Part shown: positions 50,623 to 53,463 of the stretch, one piece after another | Layout: the number at the start of each line of letters is the position of its first letter | Position numbering within the stretch: the first letter of the stretch is position 1 | Assembly: GCA_023957155.1 (NCBI GenBank) | Contig: JAMLHK010000013.1 | Coordinates: 1-64,000 of the forward strand | Direction of reading: 5' to 3' | From: Chitinophagaceae bacterium | GTDB taxonomy: Bacteria; Bacteroidota; Bacteroidia; Chitinophagales; Chitinophagaceae | Length of the DNA: 64,000 nt | Program-made: the position numbers and the translations under genes | The notes under the pieces: generated by a model | The model's database searches: none | Seen by the model: only the letters and a program-made list of their open reading frames with translations | What the model was told of the DNA's origin: nothing

Positions 50623-52215
50623 TCACCACCGGTCTGTATGCGCAGCTTCTACATCCTGCTTATATTTTTCGGGAATTTGGCCCCGGATAATACAGCCCGG
50701 TTGCAGGGATGGAAAGATATCTTCAAACGTTCTTACTTCATTCATAAACACCCGGCGATAGATATGAGAACGGTTTAGCTGTTCTTTTTCGCTTACTCCT
50801 GCTGCACTGCAAAGCTCAACAAAAGATTTAACCACTTCTTCGTGGTAGTTGGCTACGCGCTGCTTTTTGTCTTTCACTACCAAACCCACGGTTAATTTAG
50901 GATCCTGCGTGGCAACACCGGTAGGGCACCTGTTGGTATTACATAGCAATGCCTGGATACAGCCGATAGCCATCATCATCGCCCTGGCGCTGTTACAGCC
51001 GTCTGCTCCCAGCGCTATGGCGCGGAGAATATGAAAGCCGGATAAAATTTTTCCGGAAGCAATTACTTTAATATGCTGCCTGATCCCAAAACCCACAAGC
51101 ATGTTGTGTACAAAAGCCAGCCCGTCCATCATCGGGGCGCCCACATAATTGGAAAACTCCTGGGGTGCGGCGCCGGTGCCTCCTTCGCCGCCATCTACTG
51201 TTATAAAATCAGGATAGGTATCCAGCGCTGCCATTGCCTTACAGATTCCTGCAAATTCGCTTTTTTTACCCACGCAGAGCTTAAACCCTACCGGTCTGCC
51301 ATCACTCAGCGCTCTTAATTGCTGAATAAATCGTATCAACCCTTCAGGAGAGTTGAATGCGGTATGGAAAGGAGGTGATGCCACTGTTGTAAAAGGCTTT
51401 ACATGCCGGATCGTTGCAATTTCAAGCGTATTCTTTTTAGCGGGTAATATGCCGCCGTGCCCGGGTTTGGCGCCCTGTGAAAGCTTGATCTCTATCATTT
51501 TGATCTGTGGGCGACTTACATTTTTTTTAAACACTTCCGCTGAAAAATTACCTTCCTCGTCCCGGCAGCCGAAATATCCTGTTCCTATCTGCCATATAAG
51601 ATCACCTCCGTGTTTAAGATGGTAAGCGCTTATGCCGCCTTCGCCGGTATTATGCGCAAAGCCCCCGATTTTTGCACCTCCGTTCAATGCCTCAATGGCA
51701 TTGGAGCTTAATGCCCCGAAGCTCATTGCCGATACATTTAAGATGCTGGATGAATAAGGTTGCGTACAGTCTTTATTACCGATCGTTATTCTCGGATCGT
51801 GGTTCAATGTATTGAAATCCTTTGGCGATATGGAATGGCTCACCCATTCATATCCTTCCTGGTATACATTTAATTGTGTTCCGAAAGGCATCGTATCCAT
51901 TTCACGTTTAGCCCGCTGGTATATGGTTGAGCGGTCAATCCGGTTAATGGGACTGCCGTCAATATCCGATTCAATAAAATACTGGTACATTTTAGGCCGG
52001 ATGTCTTCCATCCAATACCGGATGCGGCCTACTACGGGGTAGGTGCGCATAATGGAATGCCGGGTTTGAAGCATATCATAAATACCCATTATAACGAGCA
52101 GTACCACAATGATAAAAGTGACCAGCCACCACGGGCTTACTGCGTAGGATAATAATCCGGTAACCAGCAAACTGAAAAAAGAGGTGATAATAAATGTTCT
52201 TCTCATGTTTCCCAA
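50623..52215 (-). CDS. Membrane-anchored FMN-binding glutamate-synthase-like protein
   Basis: The 530-residue protein has two N-terminal hydrophobic segments (about 5-45; FFSLLVTGLLSYAVSPWWLV, TFIIVVLLVIMGIYDML) and then the FMN/Fe-S synthase domain of GltB: NVSAMSFGALSSNAIEALNG, GFAHNTGEGGISAYHLKHGG, VDGGEGGTGAAPQEFSNYVG and CNTNRCPTGVATQDPKL with cysteines that fit the cluster site. There is no amidotransferase domain and no gltD nearby, so it is unlikely to be a full glutamate synthase. The real reaction is unknown. Confidence 0.88.
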   Translation of the reverse strand: MGNMRRTFIITSFFSLLVTGLLSYAVSPWWLVTFIIVVLLVIMGIYDMLQTRHSIMRTYPVVGRIRYWMEDIRPKMYQYFIESDIDGSPINRIDRSTIYQRAKREMDTMPFGTQLNVYQEGYEWVSHSISPKDFNTLNHDPRITIGNKDCTQPYSSSILNVSAMSFGALSSNAIEALNGGAKIGGFAHNTGEGGISAYHLKHGGDLIWQIGTGYFGCRDEEGNFSAEVFKKNVSRPQIKMIEIKLSQGAKPGHGGILPAKKNTLEIATIRHVKPFTTVASPPFHTAFNSPEGLIRFIQQLRALSDGRPVGFKLCVGKKSEFAGICKAMAALDTYPDFITVDGGEGGTGAAPQEFSNYVGAPMMDGLAFVHNMLVGFGIRQHIKVIASGKILSGFHILRAIALGADGCNSARAMMMAIGCIQALLCNTNRCPTGVATQDPKLTVGLVVKDKKQRVANYHEEVVKSFVELCSAAGVSEKEQLNRSHIYRRVFMNEVRTFEDIFPSLQPGCIIRGQIPEKYKQDVEAAHTDRW

Positions 52216-52253
52216 TTAGATTTCAGCAAATGTATCGAAATCGTTTATTTATT

Positions 52254-52285
52254 TTTGGCGGAATCCGGACGGGCAATTACCTTTG
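52254..52285 (+). promoter_or_regulatory. Full Bacteroidota-type promoter of the asd leader (TTTG-N20-TACCTTTG)
   Basis: TTTG at 52254-52257 and TACCTTTG at 52278-52285 are separated by 20 nt, an excellent match to the -33/-7 consensus. Transcription should begin at about 52290-52293, immediately before the leader ORF and 160 nt before asd. Confidence 0.75.
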
Positions 52286-52293
52286 CCGCCATT

Positions 52294-52356
52294 ATGTTGA
52301 TCATAACGAAGCATACAAAACGCACAAAGAAACAGTTCCTCCAAAGGAAAGGTTAA
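52294..52356 (+). CDS. Candidate leader peptide of the asd attenuator
   Basis: The 20-codon ORF reads MLIITKHTKRTKKQFLQRKG. It has five Lys and three Thr codons, eight of twenty, clustered as T-K-H-T-K-R-T-K-K at codons 5-13; Lys and Thr are end products of the pathway served by asd. Its ATG is within a few bases of the predicted transcription start, so it would be translated without a leader. The last codons (52346-52354) are complementary to the 5' arm of the terminator that follows. It is too short for ordinary gene finding and rests on this context. Confidence 0.55.
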   Translation: MLIITKHTKRTKKQFLQRKG

Positions 52357-52415
52357 AGAGTGTATAGTATGATCGAATATATTCAAGGCCTTTCCGGAAC
52401 AGGGAAGGCTTTTTT
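52346..52415 (+). promoter_or_regulatory. Predicted transcription attenuator upstream of asd
   Basis: Two exclusive structures are possible. Terminator: 52388-52395 (GCCTTTCC) with 52402-52409 (GGGAAGGC), loop GGAACA, then TTTTTT (52410-52415). Antiterminator: 52346-52354 (GGAAAGGTT) with 52387-52395 (GGCCTTTCC), seven Watson-Crick and two G-U pairs, which takes up the whole 5' arm of the terminator. A ribosome stalled at the Lys/Thr codons would leave 52346-52354 free; one that reaches the stop at 52354 would cover it. Confidence 0.6.
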
Positions 52416-52455
52416 AGTGTGATATATTTAAACAAAAACCATAAAACAAATCAAA

Positions 52456-53463
52456 ATGAAAGTTGCAGTAGTTGGAGCTACCGGATTAGTAGGCACCAAA
52501 ATGTTACAGGTTCTTTCGGAAAGGAATTTCCCGGTAACAGAATTATTACCTGTTGCTTCGGAAAAGTCTGTTGGAAAAGAAGTTGAATTTAAGGGCAGAA
52601 AATTCAAGGTAGTAAGCGCCGCGGATGCTATCGCAGCTAAACCGGATGTGGCTTTGTTTTCGGCCGGCGGAAGTACTTCACTGGCGTTAGCTCCGCAATT
52701 TGCTGCAGCGGGTATTACCGTTATAGATAACTCTTCTGCCTGGAGGATGGATGCCTCTAAAAAATTAGTTGTACCTGAAATTAATGCTGATGTCTTAACA
52801 AAGGAAGACAAGATTATTGCCAATCCCAATTGCTCAACCATACAGATGGTGGTAGCGCTTAACCCGTTACATAAAAGGTACGGAATTAAAAGGATTATCG
52901 TAAGCACTTACCAGAGTGTTACCGGAACAGGTGTAAAGGCGGTGCAACAAATGATGGGTGAAAGAGAACAGGCGGTTAAAGGAGAAAACGAGGAATACCC
53001 GATGGCATATAAGTACCCGATTGATTTGAATGTTATACCCCAGATTGATGTATTCCTGGATAACGGATATACCAAAGAAGAGATGAAGATGGTGAATGAA
53101 ACCCGTAAAATATTAAGGGACGATAACATCCGGGTAACGGCTACTACGGTCCGTATCCCGGTGATGGGCGGGCACAGTGAAAGTGTGAATATAGAGTTTG
53201 AGCAGGATTTTGATTTGAATGAGATAAAAGAAATACTGGGCAATGCGCCGGGAGTTGTGGTTGTGGATGATCCTGCCAATGCGTTGTATCCTATGCCTAA
53301 GGATGCGCACGAAAAGGATGAAGTGTTTGTGGGAAGATTAAGAAGAGATGAATCGCAACCCAATACCCTTAATATGTGGATTGTTAGCGATAATCTTCGT
53401 AAAGGTGCGGCAACCAATGCCGTACAGATTGCAGAATACCTTGCTGCAGAAAATTTATTGTAG
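52456..53463 (+). CDS. asd: Aspartate-semialdehyde dehydrogenase
   Basis: Asd reduces aspartyl phosphate to aspartate semialdehyde, the branch point to lysine/diaminopimelate, threonine, methionine and isoleucine. The 335-residue protein starts with the NADP site VGATGLVGTKMLQVL and has the catalytic Cys in IIANPNCSTIQMV, the substrate residues in YQSVTGTGVKAVQQM and the His in PVMGGHSESVNIEF. Upstream is an apparent Lys/Thr attenuator. Spacing from the terminator to the ATG is about 40 nt, with an A-rich region rather than a Shine-Dalgarno. Confidence 0.97.
   Translation: MKVAVVGATGLVGTKMLQVLSERNFPVTELLPVASEKSVGKEVEFKGRKFKVVSAADAIAAKPDVALFSAGGSTSLALAPQFAAAGITVIDNSSAWRMDASKKLVVPEINADVLTKEDKIIANPNCSTIQMVVALNPLHKRYGIKRIIVSTYQSVTGTGVKAVQQMMGEREQAVKGENEEYPMAYKYPIDLNVIPQIDVFLDNGYTKEEMKMVNETRKILRDDNIRVTATTVRIPVMGGHSESVNIEFEQDFDLNEIKEILGNAPGVVVVDDPANALYPMPKDAHEKDEVFVGRLRRDESQPNTLNMWIVSDNLRKGAATNAVQIAEYLAAENLL

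Follow-up and report, generated by a model that had tools for sequence, protein, structure and literature searches.

Leader-peptide attenuators for thr, his, trp, ilv and leu are well known from the Proteobacteria, and the attenuators of this group were reportedly described by Vitreschak et al. 2004. The mycobacteria, members of the Actinobacteria, possess leaderless cysteine attenuators in which the leader ORF lies at the 5' end of the transcript. The known forms of RNA control for lysine are the L-box riboswitch and the T-box; the L box binds lysine directly, possesses no ORF and controls lysine-pathway genes. We know of no regulator for asd or dapA in the Chitinophagaceae. The Bacteroid-trp RNA is one that we take to be an attenuator, presumably of the trp operon. 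It is a named cis-regulatory RNA of the Bacteroidetes (RF01692), as presented in PMC2864571. Leader peptide attenuation of amino acid biosynthesis operons was inferred from the transcriptome of Flavobacterium psychrophilum (PMC9723704), and in a general sense leader-peptide attenuation in the Bacteroidota is already known or inferred. The nearest published relative that we found of the element described here is the SEP5 sORF of Sinorhizobium meliloti, a proposed leader peptide that is translated, contains six Thr and three Lys codons, is conserved in Sinorhizobium only, and precedes a gene that its authors call aspartate dehydrogenase, as described in PMC10117765. Our searches of the open-licence literature yielded no account of a leader attenuator for lysine in the Bacteroidota.

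Here, we analyze the sequence upstream of asd, the gene for aspartate-semialdehyde dehydrogenase, in a 64,000-nucleotide stretch of DNA from a Chitinophagaceae bacterium, referred to as the window. This leader is, with high probability, a ribosome-mediated transcription attenuator that responds to lysine, whether or not threonine contributes.

Organization of the asd leader

The source genome is a 4.6-Mb assembly of 26 contigs that is 88% complete. The parts of the asd locus are as follows.

52254..52285, + strand: promoter of the Bacteroidota type, TTTG-N20-TACCTTTG, with TTTG at 52254-52257, N20, and TACCTTTG at 52278-52285, read from the sequence
52294..52356, + strand: leader ORF MLIITKHTKRTKKQFLQRKG of 20 codons (ATG 52294, TAA 52356), read from the sequence, frame kept in relatives
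52309..52332, + strand: putative control codons K H T K R T K K, assigned from Lys conservation in 94 asd leaders
52312..52371, + strand: P1 hairpin on the Lys codons, CATAC 52312-52316 with GTATG 52367-52371 and CGC 52321-52323 with GTG 52360-52362
52336..52349, + strand: P2 local hairpin, TTCCT 52336-52340 with AGGAA 52345-52349, present in the minimum-energy fold
52346..52354, + strand: antiterminator arm A, GGAAAGGTT, at the ORF end, complementary to GGCCTTTCC at 52387-52395
52387..52415, + strand: intrinsic terminator, with arm B GCCTTTCC at 52388-52395, arm C at 52402-52409 and the T-run at 52410-52415
52456..53463, + strand: asd, the putatively controlled gene, 442 bits to TIGR01296 asd_B (cut-off 324)

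On rereading the sequence, the promoter, the 20-codon ORF, the terminator and the complementarity of GGAAAGGTT with GGCCTTTCC reported in the initial annotation proved exact to the base. That account contained neither P2 nor P1, the strongly covarying hairpin on the Lys codons. The leader ORF contains five Lys and three Thr codons and has nine codons in a row reading T-K-H-T-K-R-T-K-K. Arm B is the 5' arm of the terminator and is common to the terminator and the antiterminator helix, and the end of the T-run lies 40 nt before the asd ATG at 52456. P1 is imperfect in the source genome and is not drawn as such by the minimum-energy fold, and P2 could sequester arm A. The encoded Asd also passes NF011456 of the NCBIfam profiles. 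Far from this locus, a tRNA gene at 627-698 on the - strand is the sole Rfam match at gathering score within the window.

Among 5000 dinucleotide shuffles of 52216-52455, none contained an ORF of 8-40 codons with at least seven Lys plus Thr codons per nine, a measure that was picked after the ORF had been seen. Folding of 52290-52421 gave a z of -3.9, with none of 200 shuffles equally stable, and when both strands of the window were scanned for a -7 box, a close ATG, a short ORF and a terminator, the asd leader was the sole match. It is the conservation across genomes that settles the question of whether the element is real.

Distribution among relatives and genes downstream

All 12 genomes of the same genus, the source included, possess the promoter, an H-T-K-type peptide and the terminator, in every case before asd. 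R1, a covariance model built from 30 leaders, matched 206 of the 294 genomes and 82 of the 101 genera of the family at E <= 0.01, with approximately 185 family genomes (counted by hand) at E <= 1e-4; the other 88 of the 294 gave no R1 match at E <= 0.01. The weak end of these matches is mixed, L232 of G125 being chance and L231 a real asd leader, and at L125, a weak match in the source genome (E of at least 0.15), no leader was seen. Within the order, R1 matched 80 of 348 genomes at E <= 1e-4, and within the class, 19 of 345. The 14 class matches outside the order were all fetched, and 13 are positioned before asd and one before hisG; the two order matches outside the family represent an ilvD leader (L255) and a chance-like match (L256). 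The model R2 matched 45 of 340 class genomes and 27 of 296 phylum genomes at E <= 1e-4; these are not counted as members because R2 matches near an E of 1e-5 are often chance. Ten of 20 further loci that were read look like chance or are unclear.

The element is carried by 23 of 80 asd loci from named genomes. The remaining 57 gave no sense-strand match upstream of asd, three of them (L033, L034 and L042) having less than 240 nt of upstream sequence; the best match among the 57 (E 0.0089) lies elsewhere in L071, and that of L051 is antisense (E 0.83). No element was found at the Flavobacterium-labelled asd loci among the 80. Niastella yeongjuensis, a culturable member of the family, carries the element at L016. 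Judged by sequence comparison, a lysine attenuator before asd very probably recurs in many related bacteria.

The genes downstream of the copies are mostly asd. In a first batch of 110 well-scoring loci, the element precedes asd in 101 and dapA in nine; dapA encodes 4-hydroxy-tetrahydrodipicolinate synthase, the first lysine-only step (at L109, 294 bits to TIGR00674, cut-off 206). A second batch of 44 loci, which repeats several places of the first, one dapA locus among them, comprises 31 asd and six dapA loci, one aminotransferase, one hisG and one ilvD locus, three chance-like matches (L232, L240 and L256) and one locus, L238, that stops at a contig end. Across both batches there are 14 distinct dapA places with the element. 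The source genome has one strong copy only by the R1 search, and in this 88% complete assembly no copy was seen upstream of the aspartokinase gene or upstream of the best of five matches to the DHDPS family.

Covariation of the leader hairpins

The alignment comprises 100 leaders, 94 from asd and six from dapA, of which 99 are distinct. Among the distinct leaders the terminator is paired in 96% of cells, with two-sided changes in nine of 10 pairs, and the two P1 helices in 85% and 76% of cells, with two-sided changes in eight of 12 pairs; in a more diverse set of 75 leaders, 11 of the 12 P1 pairs show such changes. With the proviso that the shuffle tests are inflated by sequence relatedness and that the alignment (A3) is fitted to P1 and the terminator, these two elements together possess 201 two-sided cells against 66.7 in shuffles (0 of 500), and 17 two-sided pairs against 13.3, a count reached by six of 500 shuffles. 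The antiterminator helix was left out of the fitted model, and three of its five measures beat all 500 shuffles and two do not. It is paired in 88% of cells (86% in shuffles), has 27 two-sided cells (13.2 in shuffles; 0 of 500) and a covariation of 0.222 (0.179 in shuffles; 0 of 500), which becomes 0.194 if the helix is slid by one column. Its two-sided pairs, five of eight, are not above shuffles (164 of 500), and its pair types are reached by 31 of 500.

Native arms pair more stably than swapped arms for P1 (-11.1 vs -8.3 kcal/mol) and the terminator (-17.6 vs -14.9 kcal/mol), in each case with none of 2000 permutations reaching the native value. For the antiterminator the difference is small (-12.4 vs -11.6 kcal/mol; 0 of 2000), and for P2 it is small, weak but positive (-6.3 vs -5.9 kcal/mol; two of 2000); two control pairings gave 1981 and 90 of 2000. 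P2 is the weakest part of the structural model. At L038, all three arms of the switch, the one at the ORF end and the two of the terminator, are replaced in concert by G/C-rich runs that are complementary. From the raw alignment, RNAalifold drew the antiterminator only, probably as a consequence of variable loops that misaligned arm C, and the counts were therefore taken on model-fitted alignments.

The initial annotation had proposed a leader-peptide transcription attenuator before asd, to be checked by searching relatives for a conserved Lys/Thr-rich short ORF and compensatory changes. A conserved ORF and such changes are present: an ATG-started ORF runs through the Lys codons in 100 of the 100 aligned leaders, and the hairpins covary, which upholds the proposal. 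The relatives share a control run that is conserved at the codon level, an intrinsic terminator, and an antiterminator that is exclusive of it and exhibits compensatory changes; P1, though imperfect in the window, occupies the place of a protector hairpin on the control codons.

A predicted near-leaderless leader ORF

In 90 of 99 leaders the motif TAnnTT[TC]G is found no more than 60 nt upstream of the leader ATG, and in 80 of 99 a TTTG is positioned 17-23 nt before this box; the promoter consensus of the Bacteroidota is given in PMC7366714. If the leader ATG is taken as the in-frame ATG that lies furthest upstream in the vicinity of the Lys codons, it follows the -7 box by 5-10 nt in 81 of 99 leaders and by 8 nt in the source genome. 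The leader ORF would be near-leaderless if transcription starts just after the -7 box. Such a start had been called unusual in the initial annotation, and from the spacing in those 81 leaders it can be added that it is conserved. Approximately 3.7% of the 5' UTRs of Bacteroides thetaiotaomicron are shorter than 10 nt (PMC7366714), and 5.5% of the mRNAs examined in Flavobacterium psychrophilum are leaderless (PMC9723704). Since near-leaderless starts are rare in both of these Bacteroidota, that of the leader seems to have been selected for and not to be simply the usual arrangement.

Ribosome position and the proposed mechanism

Geometry counts on 99 leaders used a ribosome footprint that extends 12 nt past the first base of the codon in the A site. 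Arm A is covered in all 99 leaders when the ribosome has reached the stop codon. If the A site holds the last Lys codon, arm A is clear in 75, and the other 24 are short by 0-2 nt. The minimum-energy folds form the antiterminator in all 99 leaders when the ribosome is stalled at Lys 7 and arm C has yet to be made; when it is at the stop, all 99 form the terminator. Geometry and folding are thus the two grounds on which ribosome position is predicted to decide the hairpin. In the source genome, a finished arm C tips the stability in favour of the terminator even if the ribosome is stalled, and therefore the antiterminator must win by timing. Naked RNA favours the antiterminator before arm C in 72 of 99 leaders and forms the terminator in 97 of 99 when the whole leader is present; together, these results imply that timing matters, and make a fully untranslated off state less certain.

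From the parts, their conservation and covariation, the geometry and the gene neighbourhood, we infer the following course of events. Transcription would begin a short distance, a few bases, upstream of the leader ATG, and translation would start near-leaderless, with the ribosome following the RNA polymerase. When tRNA-Lys is charged, the ribosome would reach the stop codon and cover arm A, arm B would pair with arm C, and transcription would end before asd. A shortage of charged tRNA-Lys would stall the ribosome on the Lys codons, where it would cover the 5' arms of P1 and P2 and leave arm A free to pair with arm B before arm C is made; the terminator would then not form and asd would be transcribed, so that the gene would be switched on at lysine shortage. 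In the case of no ribosome, P1, P2 and the terminator would be expected to hold asd off.

The sensed amino acid and alternative explanations

The four Lys positions of the leader peptide hold Lys in 84, 87, 83 and 86 of the 94 asd leaders. The AAN codons at these positions specify Lys in 340 cases and Asn in four, with AAA and AAG mixed. In the six aligned dapA leaders, Lys is found at the four positions in 6, 6, 6 and 5, and Thr at position 6 in none; in the full set of 14 dapA leaders the Lys count is 3-6 and the Thr count 0-2, with position 6 never occupied by Thr. Outside the order, the 13 asd leaders, two of which are identical, possess 4-7 Lys and either no Thr (10 leaders) or one (three leaders), examples being MMIKKIKCAKKLFR, MNISCMKRKMKKPLL, MYSGMKHKEKKPAQ and MKMICSKKCMKKPVR. 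Two more asd leaders were obtained via R2, and one of these, L261, has two Thr. Lys codons are therefore the constant of the ORF in comparisons of the sequences, and the element is found before lysine-branch genes. Elsewhere in the class, two thrA-type aspartokinase loci have their own Thr/Ile leaders, such as MTINNTTIITIITTGKYFGGK.

The sensor had initially been given as Lys and/or Thr, and the comparison speaks for the Lys half of that claim. Thr as the main signal is rejected, since Thr 6 drifts, is absent from the dapA leaders, and no more than one Thr remains in any of the 13 asd leaders outside the order. There is a milder form, in which stalling at either codon would free asd, which refines the lysine reading and is compatible with it; the E. 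coli thr leader senses both Thr and Ile, and Asd feeds Thr too. Thr is retained at position 3 in 81 of 94 asd leaders (12 of 12 in the genus) and at position 6 in 59 of 94 (11 of 12 in the genus). However, Thr 3 lies inside P1, the pairing of which may or may not explain its retention, and Thr 6, which lies outside P1, is replaced by Ile in 18, Asn in nine and Ser in five asd leaders and is found in none of the 14 dapA leaders. With the Thr-poor asd leaders outside the order and the separate Thr/Ile leaders of the thrA-type loci also against it, we regard such a bivalent attenuator as unlikely, although worth keeping in mind for this genus. Lys is kept, copies precede dapA and have lost Thr 6, and Thr/Ile leaders exist separately; therefore, lysine alone is the best reading of these leaders, and the sensed amino acid is most likely lysine, rather than lysine and threonine together.

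The conserved KHTKRTKK core, with His 2 in 76 of 94 asd leaders, might instead indicate a small cationic peptide with a function of its own, or a programmed arrest peptide that responds to a signal other than the charging of tRNA-Lys. That is quite improbable: the C-terminus varies, two main length classes of 14-16 and 18-23 codons share the stop-codon geometry, His 2 is part of P1 and is mostly absent outside the order where Lys stays, and the conserved terminator/antiterminator switch would be left without explanation. A lysine-binding riboswitch with an incidental ORF would also present a structured leader, complete with terminator and antiterminator, upstream of genes of the lysine pathway, but the Lys frame is held with A or G third bases (the 340 Lys against four Asn) and P1 is built on codons. 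No match to the asd leader at gathering score was found among the Rfam amino acid leaders, Bacteroid-trp and the lysine riboswitch. A permissive Rfam scan of 52200-52470 gave only four sub-threshold matches, all to families other than the lysine riboswitch: HTH-XRE at 19.8 bits (gathering 49.8, on the other strand), Phe_leader at 15.6 (55), PyrR at 15.6 (54) and DicF at 15.4 (48). The riboswitch was rejected on these results and is scarcely credible. As for a constitutive terminator beside a chance ORF, with no regulation, the chance ORF is rejected by the shuffles and by conservation across the family, and the conservation and covariation across the family leave this explanation a negligible probability. 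The preferred reading thus remains a lysine attenuator.

Other leader peptides

The same models also drew His, Thr/Ile, Ile/Val, Phe/Tyr, Asn and Met/Cys-rich leaders, most of them before fitting genes. In another family of the class, L253 contains at 300-440 a His-rich leader, MKQFTHIHHHHTFP, and a terminator before hisG (TIGR00070, over cut-off), a putative His attenuator. At L271 and L274, Thr/Ile-rich leaders (MTINNTTIITIITTGKYFGGK; MYNSTIIITIIITTGRNLAEE) and terminators are positioned approximately 300 nt from the start of the reoriented loci, before aspartokinase genes whose best NCBIfam match is bifunctional aspartate kinase/homoserine dehydrogenase I, below cut-off, with the gene ending at the locus edge; these would represent an E. 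coli thrL-like leader in the Bacteroidota. Ile/Val-rich leaders (MKNMIQIIVIISIIILMNG; MKQKNLNIIVIIQTP) precede ilvD and a branched-chain aminotransferase gene at L255 and L268, and at L272 a Phe/Tyr-rich leader, MNTTTKYFFFNYFYFKQ, and a terminator precede a prephenate dehydratase-like gene (191 bits, cut-off 219). An Asn-containing leader, MKTQTHNNNRFFALASR, before asparagine synthase B at L277 is a possible asparagine attenuator, and the closely alike leaders of L262 and L269, which end in MMCCMMCI and have a terminator, are possible Met/Cys attenuators. The leaders of L229 and L279 (MMNNKPYKKDKKRIPQR; MMKINTEYKRNKRSYLLG) contain both Lys and Arg and precede a class I-type aminotransferase that reached no curated NCBIfam cut-off among the matches listed and may be a lysine-pathway transaminase.

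We lean, by a little, toward the view that the Bacteroidota possess a whole repertoire of leader-peptide attenuators for amino acid biosynthesis, of which the Lys class, before asd and dapA, would be the most widespread found. The Lys leader would be near-leaderless from its transcription start, and attenuation would then work in a phylum from which Shine-Dalgarno sequences are largely absent.

Discussion

In our proposal, asd and dapA would be under a regulator whose signal is charged tRNA-Lys, across a large bacterial family. If true, this would represent the lysine counterpart of a type of control for which E. coli provides the best-known examples. The conserved near-leaderless leader ORF also offers a clean test of translation-transcription coupling at leaderless starts in the Bacteroidota.

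Like the Bacteroid-trp RNA, the asd leader would be a cis-regulatory RNA of the Bacteroidota; it has no Rfam match. The attenuation described in Flavobacterium psychrophilum belongs to the same phylum, and the word lysine is absent from the main text of PMC9723704. The likeness to SEP5 is by description only: SEP5 is dominated by Thr codons, and the passage on it in PMC10117765 does not mention an attenuator structure. As with the L box, the element is found before lysine-pathway genes; in contrast to the L box, it has an ORF, and it has no Rfam match. The mycobacterial cysteine attenuators share with it a leader ORF at the transcript 5' end and differ from it in phylum and amino acid.

It is because of its structure that we class the asd leader with the ribosome-mediated attenuators. 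Like those of the Proteobacteria, it has a short ORF rich in codons for an amino acid of the pathway, positioned before a biosynthetic gene, and antiterminator and terminator are mutually exclusive, with one arm in common. It differs from them in that arm A lies at or just past the ORF end and could be sequestered by a local hairpin nested in P1. What would be new, from the sequences compared here, is lysine as the amino acid, with Lys codons in the control run, the near-leaderless start of the leader ORF, and the occurrence of such an attenuator in the Bacteroidota.
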